DNA from: an uncultured Lachnospiraceae bacterium
GTDB lineage: Bacteria; Bacillota; Clostridia; Lachnospirales; Lachnospiraceae
Length of the DNA stretch: 64,000 bases
NCBI GenBank assembly: GCA_947384285.1
Contig: CANDGI010000004.1
Coordinates: 55,458-119,457 of the forward strand
Direction: 5' to 3'
Under the pieces are notes generated by a model. That model was not told the origin of the DNA. It was given only the letters and a program-made list of their open reading frames with translations, and ran no database searches. Positions 1-17,508 of the stretch are shown here, one piece after another (within the stretch, counting starts at the first letter, position 1; the number at the start of each line of letters is the position of its first letter). A program made the translations under genes and the position numbers.

Positions 1-109
1 ATATATTATTAGGAATTTCTATTTCAAATGAATTTTGATTTTCCCATCTTGTAAAACTTGTCCTGCGCTGCGCATAACTCCATCCAGTCACCCACATACC
101 ATTTCCCAT
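1..109 (-). CDS. 5' end of an unrecognised gene, possibly SGNH-type hydrolase (partial)
   Basis: An open frame begins with ATG at 109 and runs off the left edge, giving 36 residues starting MGNGMWVTGWSYAQRR. A GGAAGG ribosome binding site lies 6 bases before the start and the gene follows the FkbM gene on the same strand after 27 bases, so it continues the same operon. The WVTGWSYA opening resembles the N-terminal lectin-like part of some clostridial SGNH/GDSL hydrolases, but this is from memory of the pattern only. The other frame overlapping the FkbM gene end has no ribosome binding site. Confidence 0.5.
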   Translation of the reverse strand, partial: MGNGMWVTGWSYAQRRTSFTRWENQNSFEIEIPNNI

Positions 110-136
110 ACCCTGCCTTCCTTTTCCCTGATAACT

Positions 137-1246
137 TTACACAAATATAAATTCTGGTTCGTATGGCGCATACGGCTGATGTCCTAAAAATATCCGATAA
201 TCTGAATGAATCCCTAACACAAACTCTGGAATCTCCCACATATCAGCAATTTTATGGTAAGCGCTGATAAGCATCTGCGGATGGTTCCTCCTAATCACTT
301 CCATCCCGCCTCTCAATGCATCCATTTCGGCTCCCTCTATATCCATTTTAATATAGTCCACTTTCTTTCCGCTCAACATATTATCCAAAGAGTCCACCTG
401 TATCTCACTGATTACCGGGTTCTCACTGTTAAAACGGTTTGTTCCCACTGCTCCTTTCGTAGTTTTTTCCTCTGTAGAATAAACCTTATCTACGTATTTC
501 GCTTTTCCAACCCCCACATGAACTGCATGGACATTTTCTATTTTTTCTTTTTCTATCCATGCGGCCATTTCATTATAGTTTTCTGTCACCGGTTCAAAAC
601 AATATACCTCACAATTATTATTTGTAATTTTACGAAACAGCCTTGCCGTATCACCGTTGTATGCACCACAATCTAAAATAACCTCCCCGCCTTGCAAACC
701 AATCTGCGCTATCTCTGATTTATATCTATAGCTATCCACACTCCTTGGATTTGCTTTATAAAAAAAGGGATTCCTTGTTATACATGCTTTTAAAAAATTC
801 ATATAGTAATCCTTCGATTCCTGATCTGCCAACCGGGAACATATTTCCTGTACCCGCTCAAGATTCTCCCGGATCTTTCCTGGCTTATATCTCCATTTCT
901 CTACAATCTTATTAGAATTACAGAAAATCTGCCTCTCATCCATCCCTCTGTTTTTTACCAAATCTGAGGCGATTTCATATTGATAACCATTGGTTGAAAT
1001 CACAATAGCAGTTTCTTTTGTAATATAATTTTTTAAATCTGTTTCAGGAGATTTAACCTGAAACCCACAAATTATTTTCCCCCATTTCTCACGATTGTTG
1101 TCAAATACTGCATCTATTTTTTCCCTTCCAATCAAAGCGATTGTATCCTCATATGCAAAGCCAGCTCCCCATAAAACAATTGAATCAAACTTGTATACAT
1201 CTTCCAGTGTCCGTATCTTGACATTTTCCAAATCTTGGCTGCTCAT
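137..1246 (-). CDS. FkbM-family SAM-dependent methyltransferase
   Basis: A 369-residue protein. The C-terminal half is a class I methyltransferase of the FkbM type: the SAM-binding loop VILDCGAYNGDTARLF lies near residue 190, an acidic motif VYCFEPV follows, and DYIKMDIEGAEMDALRGG near residue 300 is the family signature. The N-terminal 130 residues look like the small nucleotide-binding-like domain (IVLWGAGFAYEDTIALI) often attached to sugar-modifying enzymes. FkbM enzymes O-methylate sugars or polyketides; here, in a flagellin-glycan cluster, O-methylation of a glycan is the likely role. The ATG has AGGAAAGG upstream. It sits 50 bases after the radical SAM gene and probably shares its transcript. 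Confidence 0.85.
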   Translation of the reverse strand: MSSQDLENVKIRTLEDVYKFDSIVLWGAGFAYEDTIALIGREKIDAVFDNNREKWGKIICGFQVKSPETDLKNYITKETAIVISTNGYQYEIASDLVKNRGMDERQIFCNSNKIVEKWRYKPGKIRENLERVQEICSRLADQESKDYYMNFLKACITRNPFFYKANPRSVDSYRYKSEIAQIGLQGGEVILDCGAYNGDTARLFRKITNNNCEVYCFEPVTENYNEMAAWIEKEKIENVHAVHVGVGKAKYVDKVYSTEEKTTKGAVGTNRFNSENPVISEIQVDSLDNMLSGKKVDYIKMDIEGAEMDALRGGMEVIRRNHPQMLISAYHKIADMWEIPEFVLGIHSDYRIFLGHQPYAPYEPEFIFV

Positions 1247-1296
1247 CTCTTTATCCTTTCCTTAACCGATATTTCATTTTGTGGTTCTTCCCTGTA

Positions 1297-2427
1297 TTAT
1301 ATGATCCATTCACCAATCTCTTTTTTAGACACACACCATGGTATCCCCGGCAAACGGTTCTGGGCATCACAAAATTCACACAAAGGCACCGCCCGGGAAA
1401 TCTTTTGTGTCAATTCTTCCATATTCTTTACCTGATGGATATCCACACCATTTTCTCTCGGACCTGGGAGGCCTTTTTTAAAATAGTTGTTAAACAAATC
1501 AATGTACGCACTATTCGCACAAGGATATAAAACCCCTTCCCTCAAAACATACTGCATGCAGAGACAGCAATCAAAATTATGCTGTTTATCCATGCCGCCT
1601 TCCAGCCTCATGGGAAGACCCCACATCTCTTTTGGTTTATCCTCCGAATTGCCTGTATTGCCAAATGTAACCCTTATTCCTTTTTCTCTTAAGCTATCTA
1701 CAATATTATGATAATCAATGTTGATCGGATATCTGGATATCCACAATTCTACATCATTATCTACACAGGACTGGAAAAACTCTTCCTGCATATCTTTGAT
1801 CTTGGTTGCATTTGTAATCATAATAATTTTTGTTCTAGGAAAATATCTTTTTGCAATATACGGAAAACTGTAAGCCCTTGGATGCAATGTAGGTTCTCCG
1901 CCTGACAGTTGTATTTCATCTATATCTCCACTTGTCAGTTCCGCTAATCTCCTGCAATCTTTCACAAAGTCCTCTTCCTTCAGATAAAACCCATCTTTCG
2001 GAGCTAATGGAGAAAAGTGGGAACACCGGACACAGCTCATATTGCAATGATCCACCAGATGAAACATAATGCAGGCAAATCTTTTTACTTTACTATTCAA
2101 TTTTTTCGCCTCAATGAATTCTTGAAAAGTAAAAACCTCCGCATGCTTTAATTCAGACAACTCTTTTTTTATCTCTGACACTGTCTCTTCTGTGCGAACC
2201 GTTATAATAATCTGGTATCTTTTTTTCTTATTTTCATATTTCTGTAATTCTTCCGGCAAAGCAATCCGAATGCCATAAAATAACTTTCCCCGCTTTTTTT
2301 CGTCCTTATCTATAATAGCGGCAACATGAAATCCAGCAGAAGTAATTGGCTGAAAGGCCATCCTAAGATTTTGTGTTCCTGCACCATACAAAATAACAGC
2401 CTCAGTCTCAGATTTAATATATTCCAT
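1297..2427 (-). CDS. Radical SAM protein with N-terminal nucleotide-binding-like domain
   Basis: A 376-residue protein. The canonical iron-sulfur motif CNMSCVRC (CX3CX2C) lies near residue 130, followed by IQLSGGEPTLHP, the GGEP motif that contacts SAM. Further cysteines in the C-terminal third (CCLCMQY, YPCANSAY, LCEFCDAQ) suggest an auxiliary cluster of SPASM/twitch type. The first 100 residues (VILYGAGTQNLRMAF, then IIDKDEKKRGKLFYG) look like the small Rossmann-like domain also present in the neighbouring FkbM protein. The substrate is unknown. Context among glycan genes suggests modification of a sugar or of a glycan-linked amino acid, which is inference. Confidence 0.8.
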   Translation of the reverse strand: MEYIKSETEAVILYGAGTQNLRMAFQPITSAGFHVAAIIDKDEKKRGKLFYGIRIALPEELQKYENKKKRYQIIITVRTEETVSEIKKELSELKHAEVFTFQEFIEAKKLNSKVKRFACIMFHLVDHCNMSCVRCSHFSPLAPKDGFYLKEEDFVKDCRRLAELTSGDIDEIQLSGGEPTLHPRAYSFPYIAKRYFPRTKIIMITNATKIKDMQEEFFQSCVDNDVELWISRYPINIDYHNIVDSLREKGIRVTFGNTGNSEDKPKEMWGLPMRLEGGMDKQHNFDCCLCMQYVLREGVLYPCANSAYIDLFNNYFKKGLPGPRENGVDIHQVKNMEELTQKISRAVPLCEFCDAQNRLPGIPWCVSKKEIGEWII

Positions 2428-2493
2428 GAATTTTACATTCCTTTTCTTTTAATAATCCTTCTTATTATCTATCACTTTATATCTCCCGCAGCC

Positions 2494-3567
2494 TTATCCC
2501 GTTATCCATCTTCCAAATTGCCGGATCAGCTTCGCCTGGATAATTGGTATAGGAATTTCATGGTTTCCAAAATATTCTGGCTCTCTGTACACCCATTCAT
2601 ATAATCGAATAATGGCATCCTTGTAAGCAGCAATCTCATGCTCCGTTAACACGCCTAACAATGCATCTAAAGGTTCATAGCAATGGAACGGCGATGCTGC
2701 ACAGGATAAATATCCTTCTGCTTCCCCTTTGTGAACTTCTTGGATGCGGTTCAGCTTCGATTTTATACTTTCCAAATCCATTTTATCCCTGTCTGCATTT
2801 ACCTCTCCCCGTACTATTTTTGATATAATTCTTCCAGCGAGATGGTAATATTCTTCTTCATAATGCACTTCCAAAATATCGTCTGCAAAATTGCAATCCG
2901 CTACAAAATACTTTGCCACATCCACGCTCTGAATCCCAAATTTCTCTATCACATGTTCTTCCAAATTACGGATACGTGCATTATCTCTATAGCTTCCAAG
3001 CCAATTTGGATTCTGCCTCCTGATTTCTTTAAGGGTGTTATCTCTATCTATGTAATATTTATTAAAATATACCCGATTCAAAATAATATGGTCCTTTCCA
3101 TATTTTTCCACCATAATCTGAAAATACTCATCCACTTTGCTATACCATAGAAATGCAGGCAAATCAATCCAGCGGAACACGCCTTCTATTTGATCTGAAA
3201 TCTTTTTCCAGTAATCTGTTTCATTAAAAAATGAGGTATGCGTGTAACTCCCATTACGATATGCCCACTGCACTCGGCCAAAATCATAAAAATCAACCAG
3301 AAGATATTCCGCATCGGATTGCAATAATTCTGAAACAACTGATTTGTTCAAATCCGTTATAATATTTCTTCTTAAATGCTCATCAATAGCAATCAATTCC
3401 TCTTCGGTAGGTTCTATATCAATTTTCTTTCCCATGGAACCAGCGATATTGATATGCGAAAAAAAATGATGATTGTCCAAGCAATCCAATTTAATCTGGC
3501 AGCCAGCTTCTGTTTCCTTCTTTAATATGCTGAAACTAACGCAGCTCCCATGCACATCCGCTTTCAT
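2494..3567 (-). CDS. DUF6270-like protein of unknown function
   Basis: A 357-residue protein with no signal peptide. It opens with VHGSCVSFSI, an SGNH-like G-S-C start, and contains YLLVDFYDFGRVQWAYRNGSYTHTSF in the first third. This pattern matches DUF6270 proteins often found in surface-polysaccharide and glycan clusters, whose fold may be related to SGNH hydrolases. The family assignment is from recognition of the pattern, not from a search. It begins 14 bases after the ThDP enzyme gene, so co-transcription is likely. A glycan acyltransferase or esterase role is possible but unproven. Confidence 0.6.
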   Translation of the reverse strand: MKADVHGSCVSFSILKKETEAGCQIKLDCLDNHHFFSHINIAGSMGKKIDIEPTEEELIAIDEHLRRNIITDLNKSVVSELLQSDAEYLLVDFYDFGRVQWAYRNGSYTHTSFFNETDYWKKISDQIEGVFRWIDLPAFLWYSKVDEYFQIMVEKYGKDHIILNRVYFNKYYIDRDNTLKEIRRQNPNWLGSYRDNARIRNLEEHVIEKFGIQSVDVAKYFVADCNFADDILEVHYEEEYYHLAGRIISKIVRGEVNADRDKMDLESIKSKLNRIQEVHKGEAEGYLSCAASPFHCYEPLDALLGVLTEHEIAAYKDAIIRLYEWVYREPEYFGNHEIPIPIIQAKLIRQFGRWITG

Positions 3568-3581: not shown

Positions 3582-5354
3582 TTATTCCGTTTCATAAGGC
3601 CACATATCTTCCAACGCCCCAGATACCATTTTCCCATTCTCGCCTACCGCTGCCTTCACCCTTGGGGATACTGTTTCTTCTGGCAGCACCATCAGTTCAC
3701 ATAACATAGGGCTGTCATCCTTCATAATCTCCGGCAGTGCCCTGTCCAATTCTGCATTGTCTCTAATCCGGTATGTCTTGAATCCATAAGCCTCTGCTAC
3801 TTTGCTGATGTCCGGCATAGTCAATCCGCTGCCCGCATCGCTGCCCACATAATGGCCGCCAAAATTATTCCGCTGCATGGAACGGATGCTGGCATATCCT
3901 TGGTTGCTCCATATAAATATTTTTACTGGAAGTTTCAGCCTGTGCAGCGTTTCCAGCTCCTGTATATTCAGTTGAAATGCCCCGTCGCCATTGATCAGGA
4001 CAGTTCTTCTTTTCCCATTTGCAATGCAGGAACCTATGGCATAAGGAAGCCCGAATCCCATAGAACCCAGCCCCGCAGCATTCTTCATCTTCTGCCCTTT
4101 TTTCAGCCGGAACGCCTGATAGGTGATCTCCCCTGCCCCTCCGGAGCTTTCCGGGACAATGATGTCCTCCTCTTTCAAAAACTTGCACAGTTCCCCGATA
4201 AAATAATAGGCACTGACATAGCCTTTCACATTTTTATGCTCCTTCGTGACTACCGGATACCTGTTCCTGGTTTCCCTGCAAAAACTAAGCCAGCTCTCCC
4301 TCGCCTTCTGCGTTTTTTCACTCCATAGGACGTCTTTTCTTTGACGGACAGCTTCTAGGAGCTCTTTCAAAAAAAGCCCCGCATCACACGCCGCCGATGC
4401 TTCCTTTTCCATATCCATCCTGGCTATCTCATTTGGGTCAATGTCCACAATTACTTTCTTGGCGTTTCTGCCGAAATTCCTGTCATTGAAAGCAGTTATG
4501 CTCGTGTCCAGACGGCTTCCCACTGATAGGATAAAATCCGCTGACTGCAAAACCAGGTTTGCGCCCCTATCCCCCATAATGCCTGGATGACCCGCATAGA
4601 AAGCACTTTCTTCGCCTATTAAGTCTATGGCTTTCCAAGTTGTCTGCACTGGAAGATGCAATGTGTCCAACAAGCCGTCTAATAATTCTTCCGCCCCTGC
4701 CAGTTTCACACCATTCCCCGCCAGGACAAGGGGTTTTTGGGACATCTCCAATAATTTCACCGCTGCATCAATTGCCTCTGTAATATCCGGTTCCCCCTTT
4801 GCCGTGGAAACATATCCTCTCAGGCCGCTCTCCTCTATCATTACTGCCTGCACATCCAACGGAATATCCAGCCAGACCGGCCCCGGCCTTCCTGTTGTGG
4901 CTTCCTCATATGCCCGTTCCAGGTAATAGCGTATTTCTTCTGGTTTCAATATCTGTACTGCATATTTTGTAATTGGTTTTACCATGGGGACAATCTGGAC
5001 TTCCTGGGATCCCGTCTGCCTGACTCCTTTGTCCCCTACCAGGTCAGAACGCTTAGACTGTCCGGAAATGACCAGCATTGGCGTGGAATCAATCCACCCT
5101 GCCGCCACTCCAGTAATGGCATTGGTCGCCCCGGGACCGGAAGTCACCAGCACAAGGCCTGGTCTATTTGTATGCTGCCCATATGCCTCCGCTGCAATAG
5201 CCGCCGCCTGTTCATGGAGAAAACAGGTATATTCCATATTTGACTTTCCAATAGAATCATCCAAGTGCATGGCACCGCCGCCTGGAAGCATGAATGCATG
5301 GCTGACCCCTTTGCTTTCCAAAAACTGAAACACATAATCTGATAATTTTACCAT
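3582..5354 (-). CDS. Thiamine-diphosphate enzyme, acetolactate synthase-like
   Basis: A 590-residue ThDP-dependent enzyme with the three-domain layout of acetolactate synthase. The catalytic glutamate lies in FLHEQAAAIAAEAYG, followed by SGPGATNAITGVAAGW; the C-terminal ThDP/metal motif begins LINGDGAFQLNIQELETL and ends SNQGYASI. Genuine acetolactate synthase would normally sit with ilv genes. Here it lies beside CDP-glucose 4,6-dehydratase and a cytidylyltransferase, which resembles the setting of YerE, the ThDP enzyme that adds a two-carbon branch to CDP-keto-deoxysugars in yersiniose synthesis. That role is inference. It starts 3 bases after the HAD-SIS gene stop, indicating tight coupling. 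Confidence 0.85.
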   Translation of the reverse strand: MVKLSDYVFQFLESKGVSHAFMLPGGGAMHLDDSIGKSNMEYTCFLHEQAAAIAAEAYGQHTNRPGLVLVTSGPGATNAITGVAAGWIDSTPMLVISGQSKRSDLVGDKGVRQTGSQEVQIVPMVKPITKYAVQILKPEEIRYYLERAYEEATTGRPGPVWLDIPLDVQAVMIEESGLRGYVSTAKGEPDITEAIDAAVKLLEMSQKPLVLAGNGVKLAGAEELLDGLLDTLHLPVQTTWKAIDLIGEESAFYAGHPGIMGDRGANLVLQSADFILSVGSRLDTSITAFNDRNFGRNAKKVIVDIDPNEIARMDMEKEASAACDAGLFLKELLEAVRQRKDVLWSEKTQKARESWLSFCRETRNRYPVVTKEHKNVKGYVSAYYFIGELCKFLKEEDIIVPESSGGAGEITYQAFRLKKGQKMKNAAGLGSMGFGLPYAIGSCIANGKRRTVLINGDGAFQLNIQELETLHRLKLPVKIFIWSNQGYASIRSMQRNNFGGHYVGSDAGSGLTMPDISKVAEAYGFKTYRIRDNAELDRALPEIMKDDSPMLCELMVLPEETVSPRVKAAVGENGKMVSGALEDMWPYETE

Positions 5355-5357
5355 AAT

Positions 5358-6434
5358 TCACCTCTCCTGCCCTGTGTATCCCCCAAACATCCGGTATTCC
5401 ACATATTCAGCCAGGACATGGCCAATAAATATATGTGCTTCCTGGATTCTTGGCGTAATCAATGATGGCACTTTTATCGTATAATCCGCACTCCCCTCTA
5501 ATTCTGGACTTTCAAACCCGCCCATAAGGAGCACAGCCATCATCCCATGTTTCCTGGCGAACCGGAGCGCTTCCAAGACATTCTGGGATCTCCCACTCGT
5601 CGAAAGCCCTACCACCATATCCCCTTTCCGGGCTTTCGCCTCAAGCTGCCTTGCAAACACCTTTTCAAAACTATAGTCATTGCTGATAGCCGTCAATGTG
5701 GACGTGTTTACCGACAATGCCTCCGCGTTCAGCCCTGGCCGTTCCTTGTAGAAACGGCTGATAAATTCCGTGGCGATATGCTGGGCGTCTGCCGCACTTC
5801 CACCATTCCCGCACAGGTACAGCCCACCATGGCCGTCTAATATCTTTATCATCTCTTCTCCCACCGCCATGACTGTATCCATGAGTCCCTGGTCAGACGC
5901 CAGCTTCTTAAAAATGTCTGTATGCTCTTCCAGTCTCTGAAAGAAATAATTATGGGGGCTTTCTCCATTATTATGCTTTTCCAAGATAGAAACCAGCTCC
6001 CAGATGCACCCCTTCCCGCCATCTTTCTGAAGAATCATATCTGCGGCATCCCTTGCTATGTCAATGGCATCCGCCGGGCAAACCCCAAGCCCTGCATAAG
6101 CCAATGGCTCTATATCATATTTTCCGTCGCCCACATAACAAATATGTTCCCGGCTGATTCCTGTGCCCTGTTCAATCTGCTGCATAGTTTCCCTTTTGGT
6201 ATGGTTTCCCCTGTAAAAATATTCCCATGGAAAACGTTTTTCAAAATAATCAACAATTTCCGTGTCTTCTCCTGTAATCGCAGCCAGCTTATAACCTCTG
6301 CGATGAAGCTCAAAGATTGCATCTATATCCTTTAAGCTGATTTGTTTCTGCTCATTTCCCTTAGAATCAATAATAACGGTGCCATCTGTGATGACACCGT
6401 CAATGTCAAACACTATCAATTCAATCATTTTCAT
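5358..6434 (-). CDS. HAD phosphatase (KdsC-like) fused to SIS sugar isomerase domain
   Basis: A 358-residue two-domain protein. Residues 1-165 are a HAD phosphatase like KdsC or N-acylneuraminate-9-phosphatase: FDIDGVITDGTVI carries the nucleophile aspartates, LAAITGE the second motif and YVGDGKYDIEPL the metal-binding acid. Residues 185-358 are a SIS domain like GmhA/DiaA: LYLCGNGGSAADAQHIATEF and VVGLSTSGRSQNVLEAL are its phosphosugar-binding loops, and RIQEAHIFIGHVLAEYVE closes it. The pairing of a sugar-phosphate phosphatase with an aldose-ketose isomerase in one chain suggests two steps in sugar precursor synthesis. It follows the NeuB-like gene by 13 bases. The exact substrate cannot be read from sequence. 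Confidence 0.82.
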   Translation of the reverse strand: MKMIELIVFDIDGVITDGTVIIDSKGNEQKQISLKDIDAIFELHRRGYKLAAITGEDTEIVDYFEKRFPWEYFYRGNHTKRETMQQIEQGTGISREHICYVGDGKYDIEPLAYAGLGVCPADAIDIARDAADMILQKDGGKGCIWELVSILEKHNNGESPHNYFFQRLEEHTDIFKKLASDQGLMDTVMAVGEEMIKILDGHGGLYLCGNGGSAADAQHIATEFISRFYKERPGLNAEALSVNTSTLTAISNDYSFEKVFARQLEAKARKGDMVVGLSTSGRSQNVLEALRFARKHGMMAVLLMGGFESPELEGSADYTIKVPSLITPRIQEAHIFIGHVLAEYVEYRMFGGYTGQER

Positions 6435-6447: not shown

Positions 6448-7272
6448 CTATCCTCTGAGTTTTCTCCTCACAGCTTCTTCTGCTTCCGAGAGAACCTTCT
6501 GCCCTGTTCCCATGATTTTTTCAACTTCCCTAATATCCCTCACCAATCTACAGAGTTCATATGGCTCCATTGATGCTTTCTGATCTGATCCATACATAGA
6601 TCTGTCCAGCGTAATATGACGTTCAATTGATGACGCCCCGGCAGCTACTGCGCATGTGCTGACCAACGTTCCTATTTCATGGCCGCTGTACCCAGCCTTG
6701 CATTGATAAGTGCTTTTTAATCTCCCTATCATTTTCAGGTTTGCCTCCTCAGCAGGCATGGGATAAACACTATTACAATGCAGCAATTCATATGGGCAGC
6801 CATGTTTCTGGAAAATTTTTACTGCATAGCTGATTTCATCCATAGAACTCATGCCCGTGGCAATGAATGTATATTTCCCTTCCTTTGCAACCTCTTCCAA
6901 CAATTCGCCACTTGCCAGCATTGCAGATGCTATTTTATTATAGTTACAGTCATATTGCTGCAGAAATTTCTGGGAATCAAGATCCCACGCAGATGCATAC
7001 CACTCAATTCCTTTTTCCTGACAATAACTATTTATGGCATCATATTCCCTTTTTCCAAGTTCCAGCCCTTCTTTTTGCGCCCGCTGAGTAGTTCCCCAAG
7101 GACTTTTCCTTGGGCTGTCCAGATACTCCTGTGTGTATACCTTATCAATCGTCCGTTTCTGGAATTTCACTGCATCGCAGCCTGCAACCACTGCCGCATC
7201 AATCAGCTTTTTTACCAGCTCCAGATCGCCATTATGGTTAATTCCAATTTCCGCTGTTATAAAAGTCCTCAT
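6448..7272 (-). CDS. Sialic-acid-synthase-like (NeuB family) enzyme lacking the SAF domain
   Basis: A 274-residue TIM-barrel enzyme starting FITAEIGINHNGDLELVKKLIDAA, with DAVKFQKRT, KIASAML, FIATGMSS, LLHCNSVYP and AGYSGHEIGT in the order seen in NeuB/PseI/SpsE. ERHITLDRSMYGSDQKAS supplies the usual catalytic histidine and arginine region. These enzymes condense phosphoenolpyruvate with an amino sugar or sugar phosphate. The protein stops soon after the barrel, so the C-terminal antifreeze-like (SAF) domain of ordinary sialic acid synthases is missing. I use ATG at 7272; a TTG four codons upstream is also possible. It is distinct from the larger homologue at 12795-14285. Confidence 0.82.
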   Translation of the reverse strand: MRTFITAEIGINHNGDLELVKKLIDAAVVAGCDAVKFQKRTIDKVYTQEYLDSPRKSPWGTTQRAQKEGLELGKREYDAINSYCQEKGIEWYASAWDLDSQKFLQQYDCNYNKIASAMLASGELLEEVAKEGKYTFIATGMSSMDEISYAVKIFQKHGCPYELLHCNSVYPMPAEEANLKMIGRLKSTYQCKAGYSGHEIGTLVSTCAVAAGASSIERHITLDRSMYGSDQKASMEPYELCRLVRDIREVEKIMGTGQKVLSEAEEAVRRKLRG

Positions 7273-7339
7273 TTTTGTTTTCAAATCCTTTCCTCGTTAT
7301 TTTCTTGCAAACGGCAGTTTCTAATTTGTGGTGATATCT

Positions 7340-9282: not shown

Positions 9283-10055
9283 TGTTCCTCCCATACCTTC
9301 CACGGAGCCTTTCCTGTCATCCATAACGATTCCAGCCATGTTTTATCACGTATTGTCTCAACTGGAGCCCAGAATCCGTCATGCCGGTATGTCCGTACCT
9401 CATATTCCCGAGCCAGGCAGTCAATCAAATTTCCAGGCAATTTCTTTTTTAAACTTGTCTCCAGGCAGCCAAAGGCTTCCGGTTCCAATAACATATTGCA
9501 CGCATTCACCCAGGCACCGCCGCCTTTTTGCTTTTCCCCCTGATACCGTCCATTTTCATCCACAAACAATGTTTCATTCCGCCCGGTGGGATGCGCTACT
9601 GTAAATGTTGCCATACATTCTGAAACTTTGTGCGCCTTTACTAGTTCGCTTATATCAATATTGGAAAGACAGTCTCCATATACTACCAGGGCAGGCTCCC
9701 CATCTATGTAATCTCCAACCATCAATAGCCGTTCTAATATGGAAGAATTCGCTCCAGTATCAATAATAGATACTTTCCAGTCTTCTGTTTGCTTCCGATG
9801 TATTTCTATTTCATTGGTCAGCAAATCTACCGTGATATCCGACTGGTAAATATAAAAATTCATAAAATAATCTTTAATCACTGAACCTTTATAGCCAGTG
9901 CATATTATAAAGTCATTGTAACCGTAATAAGCATACTGTTTCATAATATGCCACAGGATAGGCCTGCCGCCGATTTCTGCCATAGGCTTTGGCACTTTTT
10001 CATCCTGTTCAATTAGTGTACTGGGCAGACCGCCTGCCAGGATTATGGTTTTCAT
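9279..10055 (-). CDS. Cytidylyltransferase paralogue with degenerate active-site motifs
   Basis: A 258-residue homologue of the next gene, aligning along its whole length (PKPMAEIGGRPILWHIMKQY, IICTGYKGSVIKDYF, GFWAPVETIRDKTWLESLW). The nucleotide-binding loop, normally AGGxGTR, reads AGGLPSTLIEQ, so the conserved arginine is gone. The metal motif GDGxxDVD reads GDCLSNID, replacing one aspartate by asparagine. It is therefore likely to have lost or changed nucleotidyl transfer, though it keeps the overall fold and shares a 4-base stop/start overlap with the intact copy. A regulatory or heteromeric partner, or an enzyme for a different sugar phosphate, are the alternatives. Confidence 0.75.
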   Translation of the reverse strand: MKTIILAGGLPSTLIEQDEKVPKPMAEIGGRPILWHIMKQYAYYGYNDFIICTGYKGSVIKDYFMNFYIYQSDITVDLLTNEIEIHRKQTEDWKVSIIDTGANSSILERLLMVGDYIDGEPALVVYGDCLSNIDISELVKAHKVSECMATFTVAHPTGRNETLFVDENGRYQGEKQKGGGAWVNACNMLLEPEAFGCLETSLKKKLPGNLIDCLAREYEVRTYRHDGFWAPVETIRDKTWLESLWMTGKAPWKVWEEQ

Positions 10056-10078: not shown

Positions 10079-11920
10079 CTATTTTTCTGTACATGCCTTA
10101 GTATATTCTATATACCAATAAGAAAATTCAATAACCATATCAGCATACTCGCTGTCCTCTAAATCAATGTCCAATTGCTTCACCTCATCTATTCCCGCCC
10201 TTAAAATATGATCATGCGCTTCTTTAAAACTACACTCAATCACTCTTCCTTGTCTCCGAATCAAGTCTATCAGCATAAAAACTTTAGCAACAGCGCTTCT
10301 ATAACAACATTTTATAATTGAAGGCGACAGCATATCTTTCCATTCATTCAACAGGTCTACAACACCCCTCAATTGCTTTAATCTGTTATCTACCGTCGCA
10401 AATTCTAAAACTTCCTTACTTTTAACTTCTCTATAAGATGCCGAAAATTCATCCTCTTTCCCCTCTTGAAACATCAATTCCCCAGATGTATAGATATCTG
10501 TTTCCAGTGCACATCGCATAGCTGCAACGTTGTGCGCATATCCTCTCTTAAAAAAATTACCTTGTCCACCTTCTGTCTGCCAGTGATACAAATTATATAG
10601 CTTTAACTTATGATAGATTTCTGTTTTAAACATAAGTCCAGACATATAATTTAAACCCCAGAAAACCCTTTGAAAAGCTGATTCACCTTTTTCGTATTTT
10701 TTATTAACATTATCATGATAATATCCTCTGCCCGCTGCATTAATAAAAGAAACCGTACTTTCATACTTCTGAATCAAATATAAATATTTCCATACATTTT
10801 CTAAATAAACCAAGTCCTCATCGCTGAGCAAGCAGCAAAATTTTCCAGCTGCTCTTTTCACTGTTTCTGCAGGAGACGGATTATCTCCTGGTTTATCAGG
10901 AAAACGATAATAAGTAATCCTGCAATCCTCTTCTGCCAGTTTCTCTATTTCCTGATACCCTTCAATATTCAACTGACTGCAGTTATCACATATCAAAAAT
11001 TCTATTTCTGAATCATAAAACAATCTTTGAAGATTCCTGACATTTTGCAGCGCTCTGTGTCCCCGGTTATAGCTAGGAATTCCAATTGTCAAAAGTATAT
11101 TCCTATTTTCTCTCCCCTCTTTAGAGCAGCGAAACTCATGTTCTGATTCCATCCATCTCTGGAACAACTCAGCCTCCTCCTGAATACCTTTAAATATTCT
11201 TGGAAGAGATAGTTCCTTATGCTCATGAAAAAATGCTTTCATGCCGCCTAGTTCATCAAAAATATGCCATTCTTTCTGAAACAGTTCTTCAAACTCAGGC
11301 AATTGGAGATAAGAAAAGGGAACTGAGGTATCAGACAGAAAGCATACCATTTGCTTATGGTTCCGCTGTTTCATTTTCATTGGTTCCGTATACTTCCAAT
11401 TCTTCCAAAAAACTACTGTGTCAAAAGCATTCTCCCCGCTGAAAATTTCATCATCCGAATATTCTATGGCGCTAACTGCAACCTTTTCACCAATCTGCTT
11501 CTCATTTTTACCATATAAATAATACACACCGATCTCTGCCGGAATAAAATAGACAGGCAATTCTTCGTACCCACAAATTTTCTCCGCATGAATCTGCTTT
11601 TTATATTCCCTTAAATTCTTTTCATAAATTGATTGAAATTCTTTTTTATTGGGCACTATAAATGCTTCTTCTATAATTTCACTGATCTCCTCCTTATGGC
11701 TGCCTTTTTCTTGCAGTTTTTTCCATGTTTCAATACTTTCCACATAAAAATGCTGTTCAAACAGGAAATATCCCATTTGGAACGCTGCTTCATCTGCTAG
11801 TTCTGTGTCTGCCGGCTTGTACTTATCTATGGCATCCAGAAAAATTGCCAGCGCCTGTTCTATTTTCCCTTCTAAAGCCAATTTTTCTGCATCTCGCACA
11901 ATCTTATTTATTTCCTGCAT
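10079..11920 (-). CDS. Large GT2-type glycosyltransferase with helical N-terminal region
   Basis: A 613-residue cytoplasmic protein. Residues 1-80 are helical and TPR-like (GKIEQALAIFLDAIDKYKP). From about residue 285 a GT-A glycosyltransferase domain starts: LLTIGIPSYNRGHRALQNV, then FLICDNCSQLN and CCLLSDEDLVYLENVW, the last containing an S-D-E-D variant of the metal-binding DxD motif. The middle segment (80-280) is unrecognised. The C-terminal 150 residues are also helical. The stop of the methyltransferase gene upstream overlaps the start by 13 bases. A role in building or attaching the flagellin glycan is inferred from position. Confidence 0.78.
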   Translation of the reverse strand: MQEINKIVRDAEKLALEGKIEQALAIFLDAIDKYKPADTELADEAAFQMGYFLFEQHFYVESIETWKKLQEKGSHKEEISEIIEEAFIVPNKKEFQSIYEKNLREYKKQIHAEKICGYEELPVYFIPAEIGVYYLYGKNEKQIGEKVAVSAIEYSDDEIFSGENAFDTVVFWKNWKYTEPMKMKQRNHKQMVCFLSDTSVPFSYLQLPEFEELFQKEWHIFDELGGMKAFFHEHKELSLPRIFKGIQEEAELFQRWMESEHEFRCSKEGRENRNILLTIGIPSYNRGHRALQNVRNLQRLFYDSEIEFLICDNCSQLNIEGYQEIEKLAEEDCRITYYRFPDKPGDNPSPAETVKRAAGKFCCLLSDEDLVYLENVWKYLYLIQKYESTVSFINAAGRGYYHDNVNKKYEKGESAFQRVFWGLNYMSGLMFKTEIYHKLKLYNLYHWQTEGGQGNFFKRGYAHNVAAMRCALETDIYTSGELMFQEGKEDEFSASYREVKSKEVLEFATVDNRLKQLRGVVDLLNEWKDMLSPSIIKCCYRSAVAKVFMLIDLIRRQGRVIECSFKEAHDHILRAGIDEVKQLDIDLEDSEYADMVIEFSYWYIEYTKACTEK

Positions 11921-12771
11921 CTTATTTCCTTTCTTCTTAAAAGAACGGCCAATGTGTCGGTTTTTTTTATCTCCTTTAATTTATCCGCATATGCAGCGTC
12001 TAACTTATCATCACATAAAAAATCCCATTTTATTTGTCCACCAGGCCCCTTACCTGACAACCAAAACAAATGATTTGCCAACGGGTACCGCTGGATATAT
12101 AGTGTCTGCTCTATGATATAACCACATTCTTCCGCCAGAATCCTCATACCAGTTTCGTTATATAAGTACAGGTGAGGACTCCAGTACGTGTAATCTGCAA
12201 AATCACTGCACTCATAAAGTTCCAATAAAGCATCTTCCGCATGAGGCACCTCAATATACACTCTGCCAGAACCTGTAAGATAATCTTTGAATTGATTTAA
12301 GAAAAATCTTGGCTTTTTCAAATGCTCAAACACATGGAACAGAGTTATCACATCAAATTTTTTACTATAGTTTTCAATATTGTTTTCTGCATCTATTCCC
12401 TTTTCTCTTAAAAACCCAAGTTCATCTTTTCCTAATTCAACACCCGATATTTCTTCTGCATATTTTTGCATATGGACAATTGCCCCGCCATAACCGCACC
12501 CAAAATCCAATACTCGTTTCCCCTGTATATATTCTTTTACAGTTTCCGCTTTTCTTACATTGTCTTTATCGTTCCATTCCGCAAATGCTATCGCCACATT
12601 ATCAGTTCCATGCATGCCGCCATTTTCATAGAACTCGTCTGTGGCATCTATTTTCTGATTGAGGAATTTTATCCCGCATTTTTTGCACTTATATACATCA
12701 ATGTTAGGATTATCCCTTGTTCCCTTATGCACTAATACGCACTCTTCGCCTCTGCACACTTCACACTGCAT
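11908..12771 (-). CDS. Class I SAM-dependent methyltransferase with N-terminal zinc-ribbon-like motif
   Basis: A 287-residue protein. It begins with two CxxC pairs (CEVCRGEEC, CKKCGIKF), a typical zinc-binding head of sugar C- or O-methyltransferases, followed by RVLDFGCGYGGAIVHM (SAM loop), ISGVELG and FDVITLFHVFEHLKKP. The family includes NDP-hexose methyltransferases and unrelated small-molecule enzymes. I choose ATG at 12771, preceded by GAGGGAAG at good spacing, over an ATG ten codons upstream that would overlap the previous gene. Context points to methylation of a nucleotide sugar or glycan. Confidence 0.8.
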   Translation of the reverse strand: MQCEVCRGEECVLVHKGTRDNPNIDVYKCKKCGIKFLNQKIDATDEFYENGGMHGTDNVAIAFAEWNDKDNVRKAETVKEYIQGKRVLDFGCGYGGAIVHMQKYAEEISGVELGKDELGFLREKGIDAENNIENYSKKFDVITLFHVFEHLKKPRFFLNQFKDYLTGSGRVYIEVPHAEDALLELYECSDFADYTYWSPHLYLYNETGMRILAEECGYIIEQTLYIQRYPLANHLFWLSGKGPGGQIKWDFLCDDKLDAAYADKLKEIKKTDTLAVLLRRKEIRCRK

Positions 12772-12794
12772 AATTCTTCCCTCTTCTATGTGTC

Positions 12795-14285
12795 TTACCA
12801 TTCCCTAATAATCGTTTTTCGATTTATTAAATCAAGTTTTGTTATCTCTGGGTCATCATAATATGAATCTCCTTTCACATGAGTAGTGGAAATTTCTTCA
12901 AAAACAGCTCCATTTCTAGAGGAAAAAGCGTGTTTCACATTTCTCAATACAGTTTGGATATCACCTGGCTGCATATTGATCACCTGCTCATCCACTTTAC
13001 ATTCCAAATCCCCATAAAGAAGTTGAAATGTCTCTTCTTTTACTTTATGGAAATGCATGGGATGCTGCTGTCCCGGCAATACCACAATCAGTTTTTTGCA
13101 GTATTCCCGATTGATAATGCTTATGATTACTGCTCCCGTGCGCCTAAATTGTTTTAACCCATAATGGTGGGATAATTCTACTTCAAACTGATTTCCCAAT
13201 GCGATTCCTGCTTCAAACAGCAGCCCCTTTGCGTCATGAATGACACTCCTTGCAAGATTGATGTCTGTATACCTTTTCTTCTCATATAAGGGGGCATTTT
13301 CACCGTAATCCTTTTGTGCAGCCATACCTGGACTAAACTCACCGCTTGTCATCTGTCCTTCCTGGCAAGGCATGGCAAAAAATACGTCTTCCATTCCGAT
13401 GGTATTTCCTGCCTGAATAGCCCTGCGGGCAAACACGCCCCTGCTAAGGGAACGCAGGGAATCCAACTCTCCCTGGCTAATGTACTTATCCTGTTCCTTC
13501 TTAATGGAACAAATATTCCTGGCATCCACAATTGCTTTTACCCATCGGTCTGCCTGTTCTGGGTTCATGGAATAAGCATTCAATGTAACCGTTTCCGCAG
13601 GCAATCCCACATGCCTTTCAAAAATATCTGCACCTTTTGCCACTGCCATCATTGGCACCGTGTTATCATCCGGATTTTCGTGGCCGGAATAGCCAACCAC
13701 AATTCCGCGGTAACGTTTTTTCATACGCTCAATAAAATCAAGCTGCAAATGTTCCATAGGCGCAGGATACTCTGCAATACAGTGCAGGAATGCAAACTCA
13801 CAATTCCGGTGTGTAAAGAAATTATATATCTTGTCAATATCTGAAACAGATTTTCCTCCGGTGGATATAATCAGAGGTTTCCCAGCTGCAGCAGCTTTTT
13901 CCAGCAAGGGCCAGTCCATGGAACTGCAGCTTGCAATTTTAATGATATCCAGGCCCTGGGACTGGCACCATTCCACTCCATCCTCATCGAAAGGCGTACT
14001 CATGGCAATCATCCCTTCTTCTTTGATGGCAGCGGCTAATACAGAAAACTGGTCATAAGTCAGTTTTGTGCTCTCAAACCGCGGGATATGCTTTACATCC
14101 TGCCTTCCTTTATAGTCTGGATGTATAAAAGTATCCAGATTCCGATATTGCAGCTTTACCGCTGCCTTCACATTATACTTCCGTGCAATCTTTGCCATTT
14201 CCCTGATAATGGAAAGCCCATGTTCCACGCTTCCCTGATGGCTGTTTGCCATTTCAAATATAACCAATCCATTAAAAATACCCAT
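12795..14285 (-). CDS. NeuB-family synthase with SAF and C-terminal cupin domain
   Basis: A 496-residue protein in three parts. Residues 1-275 are a NeuB-like barrel (LVIFEMANSHQGSVEHGLSI, KLQYRNLD, IASCSSMDWPLLE, IISTGG, VGYSGHENPDDN, ERHVGL). Residues 285-350 form a SAF domain (LRSLSRGVFARRAIQAGNTI). Residues 390-496 are a cupin with QQHPMHFHKVKEETFQLLYG, giving the metal-binding histidines. The NeuB-SAF part would condense phosphoenolpyruvate with a sugar to give a nonulosonic or related acid; the cupin could be an epimerase or sensor module. ATG at 14285 is chosen because AGGAGGAAGT precedes it, rather than an upstream start without a ribosome binding site. Confidence 0.85.
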   Translation of the reverse strand: MGIFNGLVIFEMANSHQGSVEHGLSIIREMAKIARKYNVKAAVKLQYRNLDTFIHPDYKGRQDVKHIPRFESTKLTYDQFSVLAAAIKEEGMIAMSTPFDEDGVEWCQSQGLDIIKIASCSSMDWPLLEKAAAAGKPLIISTGGKSVSDIDKIYNFFTHRNCEFAFLHCIAEYPAPMEHLQLDFIERMKKRYRGIVVGYSGHENPDDNTVPMMAVAKGADIFERHVGLPAETVTLNAYSMNPEQADRWVKAIVDARNICSIKKEQDKYISQGELDSLRSLSRGVFARRAIQAGNTIGMEDVFFAMPCQEGQMTSGEFSPGMAAQKDYGENAPLYEKKRYTDINLARSVIHDAKGLLFEAGIALGNQFEVELSHHYGLKQFRRTGAVIISIINREYCKKLIVVLPGQQHPMHFHKVKEETFQLLYGDLECKVDEQVINMQPGDIQTVLRNVKHAFSSRNGAVFEEISTTHVKGDSYYDDPEITKLDLINRKTIIREW

Positions 14286-14314
14286 ACTTCCTCCTACCGC
14301 CTGCCAGTATACTG

Positions 14315-15319
14315 TCAACAGAACAATCCTGTAATTTCCTCTATGCCTATCATCTTGTCATCTATGTAAAAATCCGCATCCGGTTTCTGAAATTTTAATT
14401 CATGGTATTTCACACCCCAATCCTCCATCTGCCTTTTGGTAATATCCTCCCAGTCAATTCCCGTCTTTGTCCCCCGGGCAGTAAAAAGGACAATATAGTT
14501 GCCATCGTCATACAGATGATTAATGGCTGATACCATTTTCCGGTTGGGCTTTGCATCTGCATAATCCAGATTTTCCCTGTATTCTGCAATCACTCCGTCA
14601 ATATCAAACACAAATTTCTTATTTCCTGACAAAAGCTTTAAATATCTGTCTGCCCTGGCAAACTCCTCTTCTGTATCAATATCATAATTGTGCTCCATCC
14701 TATATCCCAGAATATAACTGCCGCTCATGGAATGGGCATCTAATATTGTCCTGCTGCGGATAACATCAATACAGGCATTCTGGTAATAAATGGGTGGAAG
14801 CTGCTGCCTTGGCATATTGTATGCCTCCTCAATATCCCCTAAAATCGGCCTCAGCCTCCCGGCCTGATCCATACGCCACATTTTATATGCAATCTCCTTG
14901 GCCGGTGCAACACACCGTACAGAATCTGCCTCAGGATTTTGAATCAGCAAATCTACCATCCGGTCAATATCTTTAGGATCCCGAACCGGATAAGTGGGGC
15001 GAAGCTGCACAACAATATCCGGCACATAATTTTCTGTGTCTCTCAGATATTCCAGTGCATGTAAAAATACATCAAAATCCAATGCCGTATCTGCCGCATA
15101 TTCTGCCGGCCGCAGGAACGGCGTCTCTGCCCCGTATTTTCTTGCAATTTCTGCATATTTTCTGCTGTCAGTGCTTACTATAATCCGATTGATAGATTTG
15201 GATTCTTTTGCATGGCAAACCGAATAGGCCAGCATGGGCTTCCCACCTATATTGCGAATATTTTTATCCATCACTGATTTAGAACCGCTCCGTGCCGGAA
15301 TAAGCGCCAGAACCTCCAT
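14315..15319 (-). CDS. CMP-nonulosonate-type cytidylyltransferase fused to HAD domain
   Basis: A 334-residue protein. Residues 1-225 are an acylneuraminate cytidylyltransferase: LALIPARSGSKSVMDKNIR binds CTP, with GGKPMLAYSV, VQLRPTYPVRDPKDID and YDIDTEEEFARAD in the family order. Residues 230-334 are a small HAD-like domain (FVFDIDGVIAEY, LFTARGTKTG, DFYIDDKMIG) like those in capsule genes. The first domain would activate a keto-deoxy sugar acid with CMP. GGAGG 8 bases before ATG 15319 fixes the start; 16 in-frame upstream codons lack support. It lies 29 bases before the NeuB-cupin gene, the expected upstream enzyme. Confidence 0.85.
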   Translation of the reverse strand: MEVLALIPARSGSKSVMDKNIRNIGGKPMLAYSVCHAKESKSINRIIVSTDSRKYAEIARKYGAETPFLRPAEYAADTALDFDVFLHALEYLRDTENYVPDIVVQLRPTYPVRDPKDIDRMVDLLIQNPEADSVRCVAPAKEIAYKMWRMDQAGRLRPILGDIEEAYNMPRQQLPPIYYQNACIDVIRSRTILDAHSMSGSYILGYRMEHNYDIDTEEEFARADRYLKLLSGNKKFVFDIDGVIAEYRENLDYADAKPNRKMVSAINHLYDDGNYIVLFTARGTKTGIDWEDITKRQMEDWGVKYHELKFQKPDADFYIDDKMIGIEEITGLFC

Positions 15320-15335
15320 TTTTATTTCCTCCATA

Positions 15336-17186
15336 TTATTTGATTGACAACAGATTTTCTCTTGCAAAATTCCTCAGTAATTCTGCGCACTGCTCTAACA
15401 TTTTACTGTATTTCATACCTTGCTCCGCGGCTGCCTTTCCCTCTTCTTCCATAGTATCCAGTTCATAAAGGCTCTCACTTCTTACCACATATTCCGCTAG
15501 TTCCATGGTTGCAGAAATCAGCTCATAAGAGGGTTTTGATTCACATTTTTCTGATATCTTTTTTATCTTTTTTAGCTGCTTTAAATAAGCGTTTTTATCG
15601 ATACCGCCTGCCTTGCAGGCATTCATAATCTTGCGATAAGCCCGTTGGAGGTTCCTTGCTTCCTTACGTATCTCATCTAGTTCTTCTGGAACCGTATGAA
15701 TATATTTGATTACCAGTTCCTTCTCCTCAGACGTGAACTCCGTTTCCATATTCTCAATGCAAGAAGCAAAATCTACGGTTTTACAACACGTTTCCGTTAT
15801 AGCATCTGCCAATGTCATCACTTCTGTATTTTCAATAAATGCACCTCCTTCAGTTGCATTTATCACTCTAACACCACGATACTCCCGGATATCCTTTACA
15901 TACATATTAAACCAATCCAGGTATAGCTTGAAATCCTGACGTGTAAACACCATCTCCTCATAATTGCCTTTTACCTGTATTGCCCCTGTCATTTCTTCTC
16001 TGGGCATAACCTGCTGATAAGTCCCAGCGGCATGAGACTTATTTCCGGAATATGCTAAGTCCTGGCCCACTAAAATAATTGTATTAAATCCCATTTTATA
16101 AAGCAGAGAAAAGCCACTGCATGCTACAGAACCTCCTGTGGATGCGTCATAAAAAACTTTCCCTGCTGCATGATATGCCATAAATGGTATGATGCGTCCG
16201 TCATAATAAAAAATTTTCTTTCCCCGCTGTTCTTTTAAGATGTCATAGTTAGCAACCACTGGCGCAATAATTGGAACATCTTTAATCTCATCAATTTCCA
16301 CTAAAGAAGTAGGTTTTTTTGAATCTATGGTAATAAAGGCATCTGGCAATACTCCTGATTTTACTAATGGTTTTACTGCTGTATCTACCGCCAGGATAAA
16401 TGCCCTGTTTTTTGCTTTTTTTATATCCTGTATATTTTTATCCAAAGAAGGTCCTGCTGACACCAGAATTGCAGGAACATCTCGTGGGAGTGCCTCCGAT
16501 AACCGTTTTGTATTATATCCTTCGCATACATACTTCATATTCATAATCTGGTTTTTGGCCGAATGTGTAGAAAAAAGAATCCCCGTTTTGTTATTCGCAA
16601 AAACAAAATCTACCCGGTCTGAAATTTTTTTCATTGCCTCTAACATTTGCTCAGGAAATAGTTCCCGATAATTCGGATGCATCTCCTGTTTTAAAAATTC
16701 TAATGTTTCTAAAGACACTAGTTTCTCCACTACAGGCTTAAACTCGGCTCCATTCAGCCCTTCCACAATAAATGCAATTGGCCGCTCTAAAATCTTTTCT
16801 GACAAATCCTCTTCCTCCAGCATTTTTAAAAATATGCTTAAAGAAGGTTCATATGCAACCACAGCAACTGTCTTATCCGAATCTTCAAGCAGCCGTTTTA
16901 AATATCTGCCACTTCCAAGGCCAAGCAAAAATACAGGTGCATACTTGTGAATTTTTCCAATCCTCTCACTCCATATTTCAACCGGCTCCCTGGCATTTCG
17001 TTTCCCATTCAGATATAAACTACGGTTCCCTTTTTTTACTTTAAAAATCAATGCCTTATCCCAAGAATATTCTGCTTTGATCTCTATACAATCCCTTTCA
17101 TATTCCCCTTTCCGTATTAAATCTGCAAACGATGGATACCACTTTTCCATAGCTGTTAAATTTTTTTCATAAATATCTTTACCCAT
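15336..17186 (-). CDS. Maf (DUF115) flagellin-associated glycosyltransferase
   Basis: A 616-residue protein of the motility-associated-factor family. The DUF115 core spans about residues 235-420: VPAILVSAGPSLDKNIQDI, FILAVDTAVKPLV, AFITIDSKKP, STGGSVACSGFSLLYKMG and ILVGQDLAYSGNKSHA. Maf proteins transfer nonulosonic acids such as pseudaminic or legionaminic acid to flagellin. That fits the flagellin gene 400 bases upstream and the CMP-sugar synthetase just downstream. The ATG at 17186 has GGGAGG 6 bases upstream and overlaps the preceding gene by 8 bases, indicating translational coupling. Confidence 0.9.
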   Translation of the reverse strand: MGKDIYEKNLTAMEKWYPSFADLIRKGEYERDCIEIKAEYSWDKALIFKVKKGNRSLYLNGKRNAREPVEIWSERIGKIHKYAPVFLLGLGSGRYLKRLLEDSDKTVAVVAYEPSLSIFLKMLEEEDLSEKILERPIAFIVEGLNGAEFKPVVEKLVSLETLEFLKQEMHPNYRELFPEQMLEAMKKISDRVDFVFANNKTGILFSTHSAKNQIMNMKYVCEGYNTKRLSEALPRDVPAILVSAGPSLDKNIQDIKKAKNRAFILAVDTAVKPLVKSGVLPDAFITIDSKKPTSLVEIDEIKDVPIIAPVVANYDILKEQRGKKIFYYDGRIIPFMAYHAAGKVFYDASTGGSVACSGFSLLYKMGFNTIILVGQDLAYSGNKSHAAGTYQQVMPREEMTGAIQVKGNYEEMVFTRQDFKLYLDWFNMYVKDIREYRGVRVINATEGGAFIENTEVMTLADAITETCCKTVDFASCIENMETEFTSEEKELVIKYIHTVPEELDEIRKEARNLQRAYRKIMNACKAGGIDKNAYLKQLKKIKKISEKCESKPSYELISATMELAEYVVRSESLYELDTMEEEGKAAAEQGMKYSKMLEQCAELLRNFARENLLSIK

Positions 17187-17508
17187 CCCTGCCCTCCCCA
17201 TCATCTACTTCCGTAAAAATATCCGCCAGCCCCCGGATGCCATAATCTAACGTATCCACCATCAATACTGCATCTCGCTGCACAACCGCTTCCGCATAAT
17301 CTTTCAATGTCTGCAGGACATAATTTTGAAAATCTGCCTGTTCCTGCTTTGTATCGCAAATTTTATTTTCCAATAATACAGATGAAAATTGCTGAATCTC
17401 CTGTGTTAGCTCCATTCCCTTATCCACCGTGTTCGTTTGCCTGAAGTAATGGTAGCCGATACAAATATCATTTATTTGCTGCAGCAATTTCTTTGCCAAC
17501 TCTTCCAC
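17179..17508 (-). CDS. Small helical protein between flagellin and Maf genes
   Basis: A 109-residue mostly helical, acidic protein starting at GTG (MEELAKKLLQQINDICIG) with AAGGG about 11 bases upstream. It has no signal peptide or membrane segment and no motif that I recognise. Its stop overlaps the Maf start, and it lies just after the flagellin terminator. It might be a flagellin- or Maf-associated helper, by position only. Confidence 0.6.
   Translation of the reverse strand: MEELAKKLLQQINDICIGYHYFRQTNTVDKGMELTQEIQQFSSVLLENKICDTKQEQADFQNYVLQTLKDYAEAVVQRDAVLMVDTLDYGIRGLADIFTEVDDGEGRDG

Follow-up and report, generated by a model that had tools for sequence, protein, structure and literature searches.

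A flagellin gene and the run of genes behind it are the subject of this text, and the question taken up is which sugars that run would build. They lie in a stretch of 64,000 nucleotides, here called the window, from an uncultured Lachnospiraceae bacterium (assembly GCA_947384285.1, contig CANDGI010000004.1; G000:C4:55458-119457). Behind flagellin (17590-18789) fifteen genes fill 137-17508 on the minus strand, and neighbours overlap or stand less than 80 nucleotides apart. The window edge falls inside this cluster, and about 11.7 kb more of the run lies to its left (L005, C4:43804-55566). Including the gene that straddles the edge, this part has ten: GDSL, FkbM, radical SAM-SPASM, hexapeptide acetyltransferase, pyruvyltransferase, CoA_binding, radical SAM, an unknown protein of 712 amino acids, SDR and RfbH/DdhC. 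Families were named by Pfam and NCBIfam profile scans of the cluster proteins, with ten left-hand proteins scanned against Pfam and six of them also against NCBIfam. The assembly is 83% complete, and not finding a gene elsewhere in the genome therefore counts for little. An earlier note made from the letters had listed Maf, a cytidine monophosphate (CMP)-sugar synthetase, two NeuB-like synthases, cytidine diphosphate (CDP)-glucose genes, a thiamine diphosphate (ThDP) enzyme, a HAD-SIS fusion, a radical SAM protein, two methyltransferases and a DUF6270 protein, and the profile matches agree with that content. The features, from flagellin leftwards, are these:

17590..18789, minus strand: flagellin, first gene of the run (Flagellin_N 145 bits, Flagellin_C 97 bits)
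17534..17561, minus strand: terminator-like hairpin separating the flagellin gene from the glycan genes (a stem of 12 pairs, a loop of 4 bases and a T-rich tail)
17179..17508, minus strand: small protein of 109 amino acids, labelled FliS-like by position only (no match in Pfam or NCBIfam)
15336..17204, minus strand: Maf-type flagellin glycosyltransferase (MptE-like PF01973, 136 bits, cut-off 34.6)
14315..15367, minus strand: CMP-sugar synthetase with a C-terminal HAD-like part (CTP_transf_3 80.6 bits; weak EcbF-BcbF match, 24.5 bits, residues 250-347)
12795..14318, minus strand: NeuB-cupin fusion of 507 amino acids (NeuB 158 bits, Cupin_2, weak lyxose-isomerase-like match; PDB 3g8r 324 bits)
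11908..12801, minus strand: class I methyltransferase (Methyltransf_23 67 bits)
10079..11920, minus strand: glycosyltransferase with a GT2 domain (28.5 bits)
9279..10055, minus strand: second glucose-1-phosphate cytidylyltransferase-like protein (TIGR02623 278.6 bits, below the cut-off of 300.25)
8512..9339, minus strand: DdhA/RfbF glucose-1-phosphate cytidylyltransferase (TIGR02623 344 bits, cut-off 300)
7340..8437, minus strand: DdhB/RfbG CDP-glucose 4,6-dehydratase (TIGR02622 428 bits, cut-off 278)
6448..7284, minus strand: short NeuB-type 3-deoxy-2-ulosonate synthase of 278 amino acids (NeuB 244 bits; no SAF match)
5358..6434, minus strand: HAD (KdsC/KDN-9-phosphatase-like) fused to a SIS (GmhA-like) isomerase (GmhA 164 bits, KdsC 96 bits, below the NCBIfam cut-offs of 209 and 107; PDB matches to GmhA and KdsC-type proteins)
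3582..5354, minus strand: predicted YerE-like ThDP carboligase (best PDB match 8rph, 392 bits)
2494..3567, minus strand: DUF6270 protein (46.6 bits)
1297..2427, minus strand: radical SAM protein with an N-terminal Rossmann-like part (Radical_SAM 31.5 bits)
137..1246, minus strand: FkbM methyltransferase with an N-terminal Rossmann-like part (FkbM 88.8 bits)
1..109, minus strand: start of a GDSL hydrolase gene, the rest outside the window, from which the run goes on to RfbH/DdhC
C4:43804-45240, left of the window: RfbH/DdhC, DegT-type (NF011936 720 bits, cut-off 423; PDB 3bcx, E 3e-150)

The hairpin is one of 15 terminator-like sites where shuffled sequence gives 14.6, promoter-like sites (44 against 50 in shuffles) are likewise not in excess, and the single match to a FliA-type promoter pattern is no more than chance and does not lie upstream of flagellin.

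Maf, the CMP-synthetase with its HAD-like part and the NeuB-cupin protein stand together at 12795-17204. The MptE-like domain of Maf is present beside flagellin, with an NCBIfam PseD score of 122 bits that lies below the cut-off of 670, and the cupin part of the NeuB-cupin protein weakly matches a sugar isomerase family. NeuB-cupin likely makes an ulosonic acid for CMP activation, and together with the CMP-synthetase it would form a self-contained route of isomerase, synthase, phosphatase and activation. Legionaminic and pseudaminic Maf islands share Maf, a NeuB-type synthase and a CMP-synthetase with this one, which differs in that, of the proteins scanned, none reaches the cut-off as NeuC, as a UDP-N-acetylglucosamine dehydratase or as the aminotransferase acting in that pathway. 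The usual PseB/PseC or Leg enzymes had been reported missing from the cluster, and so they are among the proteins scanned: PseB, PseC, LegB, LegC and NeuC do not reach cut-off among the window cluster and six left-hand proteins (NCBIfam), nor do PseB/C/G/H or LegB/C/G among the island proteins.

A second island bears on this. Contig C15 has a separate flagellin-Maf island (L006:4911-19500 and L007:3655-17339) with NeuD-like, NeuB (509 bits), NeuC (431 bits), NeuA-type, LegB (517 bits) and PtmE-like/CBS-nucleotidyltransferase genes, NeuC and LegB both being over cut-off, and the best LegC candidate, on contig C1, scores 374 bits, below its cut-off of 420. With that gene set the cell can probably produce an acid of the legionaminic type, though the genes for it belong to a different flagellin locus. 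Complete Pse or Leg genes elsewhere in the genome, together with a role of the present genes in capsule synthesis, had been foreseen in the earlier note as evidence against a new glycan; a legionaminic-type set does exist, but beside another flagellin and Maf, and the present genes follow their own. The C15 island also holds a further ThDP-NeuB pair with FabA-like, AMP-binding and LuxC-like genes, and its product is perhaps an acyl-decorated nonulosonic acid.

The CDP branch is anchored by DdhA, DdhB and DdhC, found together in one cluster as a CDP-3,6-dideoxyhexose pathway has them. The ThDP enzyme matches 8rph at 392 bits over nearly its full length, against 252 bits for the best acetolactate synthase in the PDB search, and 8rph is JanthE, a YerE-like enzyme according to PMC12188165. 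A housekeeping acetolactate synthase was considered for this protein and rejected (TIGR00118 371 bits, cut-off 538); two further genes of this genome, L140 and L141, pass that cut-off (723 and 756 bits) and are its acetolactate synthases. The enzyme has a GDG motif at 456, and its Glu48 aligns with Glu in all rows shown, at what is presumably the position of the catalytic Glu of ThDP enzymes. From the order, 392 evenly sampled genomes were searched for the ThDP enzyme (E up to 1e-90) and DdhC (E up to 1e-150), few candidates being scored per genome so that further copies may be missed, and gave the former in 57 genomes and the latter in 87, with DdhC present in 50 of the 57 ThDP genomes versus 37 of the 335 without that enzyme. 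At strict scores DdhA, DdhB or DdhC is found in the DNA examined at 47 of the 58 ThDP loci, and a 48th, G142, has such a gene on another stretch of the same contig. Being nearest to JanthE, failing the acetolactate synthase cut-off and co-occurring with Ddh genes, the enzyme is assigned to CDP-deoxy-ketosugar branching, with its catalysis a prediction. With RfbH/DdhC in the same run, little seems to be missing from a YerE-type pathway for a branched sugar activated by CDP, and the YerE-like pathway proposed earlier for the ThDP enzyme is supported by the 8rph match and by this gene outside the window.

The second cytidylyltransferase-like gene at 9279-10055 is diverged, a similar pair occurs in G142 (L019), and its substrate may be a different sugar phosphate.

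YerE-like enzymes need a 2-oxo acid, and the short NeuB and HAD-SIS genes lie directly upstream of the ThDP gene. The short NeuB is 70-76% identical to four relatives; it was tried as an ordinary NeuB equivalog and rejected (252 bits against a cut-off of 400 for NnaB, 188 against 340 for PseI, and no SAF match). We take its missing SAF domain to point to an acceptor without an acetamido group, and the SIS part of its neighbour points to a ketose phosphate as the substrate of the route. ErwE, assigned to erwiniose formation from CDP-4-keto-3,6-dideoxyglucose in vitro with an acceptor analogue, prefers 4-hydroxy-2-oxo acids (PMC12247030). A 3-deoxy-2-ulosonic acid is of that class and could serve as the ThDP donor.

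The reading that we prefer, with a probability of roughly 55%, is that the island makes two activated sugars and that the acid from the short NeuB is joined by the ThDP enzyme to a CDP-ketosugar, for the flagellum. NeuB-cupin and the CMP-synthetase/HAD protein would give a CMP-ulosonic acid that Maf would set on flagellin, and DdhA, DdhB and DdhC would give a CDP-3,6-dideoxy-4-ketohexose. The short NeuB and HAD-SIS, as an isomerase-synthase-phosphatase set, would turn a ketose phosphate and phosphoenolpyruvate (PEP) into a free 3-deoxy-2-ulosonic acid, which may be Kdn-, Kdo- or C10-like; the ThDP enzyme would decarboxylate this acid and attach what is left of it to the CDP-ketosugar at C4, an SDR may reduce the new ketone, and a branched sugar with some 13-15 carbons, activated by CDP, would result. 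The GT2 glycosyltransferase is a candidate to add it to the glycan, with decoration by methyl, acetyl and pyruvyl transfer. What the DNA itself offers is the genes with their families, their linkage and the pattern among relatives; which substrates are used, that the ulosonic acid serves as donor, in what order assembly runs and that the product goes onto flagellin we infer from these. YerE, ErwE and MMAR_2332 (yersiniose A, erwiniose and caryophyllose) are alike in that a ThDP enzyme adds an acyl unit to a CDP-4-keto-3,6-dideoxyhexose, and unlike in that theirs are described for envelope sugars and the donor proposed here would be far longer and come from a PEP-using synthase of the NeuB type.

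Short-NeuB relatives were gathered by a contig scan reaching many phyla, the best 80 of 581 loci being kept and their neighbourhoods searched with profiles; a ThDP enzyme was counted at a minimum of 500 bits and a CMP-sugar synthetase at a minimum of 130, both within 6.5 kb of the short NeuB. Thirteen of the 80 have the ThDP enzyme, and a CMP-synthetase stands by none of these 13 versus 40 of the 67 others (p 8e-5). Loci with at least 4 kb on both sides give 0/12 with ThDP versus 33/53 without, and leaving out the divergent ThDP enzymes of L029, L043 and L100 gives 0/10 (p 3e-4). A HAD match occurs in 11 of the 13, and DdhB or DdhC at strict scores (at least 400 bits for DdhB, at least 500 for DdhC) in 5 of them versus 3 of the 67 others (p 0.002). 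In L039 and L040 (Lentisphaerota) the genes form a same-strand series DdhA-DdhB-DdhC-NeuB-ThDP-HAD. The five genomes of the order sample with both short NeuB and ThDP enzyme all have DdhC too, on another contig in G381 and some 26 kb away in G142. In a tree of 43 ThDP rows the window falls in a supported group of 10, every member of which is linked to short NeuB; the tree as a whole needs 6 changes of this label, some placements being unsure from long branches.

At ten loci the gene right after the short NeuB encodes a KdsC-type HAD, with no CMP-synthetase or ThDP match in the DNA examined (L087, L090-L092, L095, L096, L102, L104, L105 and L107), and several of these are Gastranaerophilales.

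The other approach was to take all 58 ThDP places of the order sample, the window included, and to look at what stands in the place of the short NeuB. That synthase itself is at five of them (the window, G041, G142, G367 and G381, the last copy interrupted), a cupin-NeuB with a Gph-type HAD at two (L148, L156) and other NeuB types at three (L191, L195, L199). A protein of about 540 amino acids, placed at family level as HMGL-like, lies within 5.2 kb of the ThDP gene at 14 loci, 8 of the 14 with a Gph-type HAD. Some HMGL-like enzymes are pyruvate aldolases yielding 4-hydroxy-2-oxo acids. Against 37 control DdhC loci from genomes without a close ThDP enzyme, a synthase of either type (HMGL or NeuB) within 6.5 kb is found at 24/58 ThDP loci versus 1/37 (p 1e-5), the HMGL class having been picked after the ThDP neighbours had been viewed, which tells against the reading; NeuB alone gives 10/58 versus 0/37 (p 0.006). 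The one control locus with such a synthase, L247, itself has a weaker ThDP match, as does L248. Such a pairing of NeuB or an HMGL-type protein with a phosphatase near the ThDP gene would be accounted for most simply by donor making.

In L270 and L271 an HMGL-type protein is flanked on one side by a KdsC-type HAD and on the other by a protein weakly resembling CMP-synthetase (67-70 bits), with no ThDP in the stretch.

The comparison also bears on plain YerE chemistry, in which the ThDP enzyme would use pyruvate to make a yersiniose-like octose and the short NeuB with HAD-SIS would make a second CMP-ulosonic acid by way of the island's CMP-synthetase. That synthetase is present, the 40 CMP-synthetase neighbours are half of the best 80 relatives, and G250 has NeuA-NeuB-SIS-HAD with no ThDP in the stretch examined; moreover 34 of the 58 ThDP loci have no donor synthase nearby, and therefore many YerE-like enzymes probably do use pyruvate. 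It is nonetheless unlikely here, given the 0/13 count, given that L039 and L040 hold all steps of the donor route with no CMP-synthetase match in the DNA examined, and given the HMGL-type or cupin-NeuB proteins near ThDP genes elsewhere. The short NeuB and HAD-SIS are thus probably not a second CMP-nonulosonate route, because none of the best 80 of 581 relatives holds both a CMP-synthetase and a ThDP enzyme within 6.5 kb and because other YerE-like loci hold a different possible acid-making enzyme near the ThDP gene. For the unusual glycan of CMP- and CDP-activated parts that had been proposed from this stretch, the island and the YerE-like enzyme are supported, and the role of the second NeuB and HAD-SIS is probably a different one.

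Several points weigh against the reading that the short NeuB makes a donor. The 34 loci just named lack any such synthase, and relatives of the HMGL-type protein are found away from ThDP genes too (58 places in 53 genomes). Strict DdhB or DdhC is seen in only 5 of the 13 ThDP-linked NeuB loci in the DNA examined, and L029, L030, L042 (a 4.7-kb contig) and L043 have no strict Ddh gene. L043 has a weak NeuA/CMP-synthetase match (48 bits) 2.4 kb away, and in the window the CMP-synthetase is about 8 kb from the short NeuB, so that CMP activation of the short-NeuB product is possible. The ThDP label needs 8 changes on a NeuB tree of 85 rows (where L077, with ThDP at 8.2 kb, is scored as having it, and as lacking it in the locus count), and a tree-aware test leaves 5 independent pairs with a median p of 0.25; where the traits differ within a pair, ThDP and CMP-synthetase always run in opposite directions. 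The exclusion of one by the other occurs in several lineages, but is not significant in this test. No DdhD reductase was seen among the cluster proteins scanned, which was the extent of the DdhD search. Lastly, 16 of 20 short-NeuB-linked ThDP rows, and few others, have S, A or G at pocket column 285, but this column is not used as proof of donor size because its JanthE counterpart is described as stabilising flavin adenine dinucleotide.

The closest precedent appears to be sfmAB of Shewanella oneidensis, within sfmABCDE, a flagellin modification operon adjoining maf and needed for normal flagellin modification (PMC3765264). Mutants in SO_3261 to SO_3264 have flagellin of unmodified mass, that in SO_3265 somewhat less so, and the outer flagellin moiety (C9H16O7 and methylated forms) was left unsolved there. 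Going by the published description, the operon is like the present island in having a 290-amino-acid NeuB-domain protein and a 581-amino-acid ThDP enzyme, a reductase-type SDR, a methyltransferase and maf beside, and unlike it in that an ATP-grasp gene is described and CDP-glucose genes are not. From this one could argue that the ulosonic acid is the acceptor, its 2-keto group receiving a pyruvate-derived acetyl as in an acetohydroxyacid synthase, with the branched acid then linked to the glycan. The sfm moiety is compatible by our own arithmetic with a C7 ulosonate + C2 + 2H - H2O, a solution that is not unique, and the 8 of 13 NeuB-ThDP loci without strict DdhB or DdhC in the DNA examined fit as well. 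We consider such an acceptor role quite improbable for this island: DdhC is in all five short-NeuB/ThDP genomes of the order sample, DdhA, DdhB and DdhC share the strand of NeuB and ThDP in L039, L040, L094 and L106, and the YerE-like enzymes described so far act on ketosugars (PMC12247030).

A tie to the flagellum is seen beyond this genome. Flagellin, Maf, FliW or FlgL shares a stretch with the ThDP gene, or lies no more than about 16 kb from it, in the window, L022, L032, L033, L094, L148, L164, L183/L205, L207, L215 and L220, a list that is a lower bound as flanks are of uneven length and most loci were not extended. Flagellin or Maf itself is on the stretch in L022, L032, L033 and L094, the last a Verrucomicrobia metagenome-assembled genome with weaker matches. 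For the relatives G367 and G142 no flagellar gene was seen in the DNA examined. Those two are what would favour a cell-wall polysaccharide whose genes stand by flagellin through chance; with a same-strand run unbroken from flagellin and Maf, and flagellar genes near ThDP in the further genomes listed, such an origin is very improbable. In L022 and L032 a GT2 protein (27% identity) comes just after Maf, between it and the NeuB/Ddh genes, as in the window, and DUF6270 relatives lie near ThDP in L022 and L026 (37% and 35% identical).

A NeuB-ThDP pair in flagellin modification is already in print, given the Shewanella work. Its joining to RfbF/G/H with a donor role was not found in the literature searched, and work cited in PMC12247030 (e202403535) may hold such clusters. 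For yersiniose with flagellin, neither word is in the titles or abstracts of the papers returned. A 2025 review of YerE-like ThDP enzymes allows that other cell structures may hold such sugars, and 'flagell' is absent from its main text. The CDP-paratose island of Clostridium butyricum DSM 10702 (PMC13317340) is like this one in placing RfbF, RfbG and RfbH in a flagellar glycosylation island and unlike it in that paratose is predicted, with RfbS; 'thiamine' and 'acetolactate' are absent from its main text.

Other features of the run and its surroundings deserve mention. A similar N-terminal Rossmann-like part occurs on different cluster enzymes (window 137-1246 and 1297-2427; L005:13730-14131 and L005:17327-18517), with E about 1e-5 between some pairs and one small protein being little more than that part. 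Just upstream of flagellin, window 18970-19263 encodes a CsrA-like protein of 97 amino acids with a long C-terminal tail, of which L032 has an 81% identical copy in the same place. The open reading frame at window 20121-21353 is VanH/D-2-hydroxyacid dehydrogenase-like and has a near-identical peptide stretch twice at its start, which probably reflects a duplication of DNA ahead of the real start.

The sugars on flagellin matter for motility and for the way hosts sense bacteria. In its widest form the proposal is a flagellin glycan from two 3-deoxy-2-ulosonic acids, one CMP-activated and set by Maf, the other decarboxylated by the ThDP enzyme onto CDP-3,6-dideoxy-4-ketohexose to give a C13-C15 sugar, with NeuB enzymes as makers of carboligation donors that replace pyruvate aldolases in several phyla; this we advance tentatively, at a little under even odds. 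Were it true, NeuB-ThDP gene pairs could be explained, among them the sfm pair of Shewanella, proven by genetics but unsolved in its chemistry (PMC3765264), and ThDP enzymes with long polyhydroxy donors would be at hand. NeuB-type enzymes, the makers of sialic-acid-like sugars, would then have a second role, supplying a carbon-joining enzyme with donors for very large branched sugars, some of them placed on flagella.

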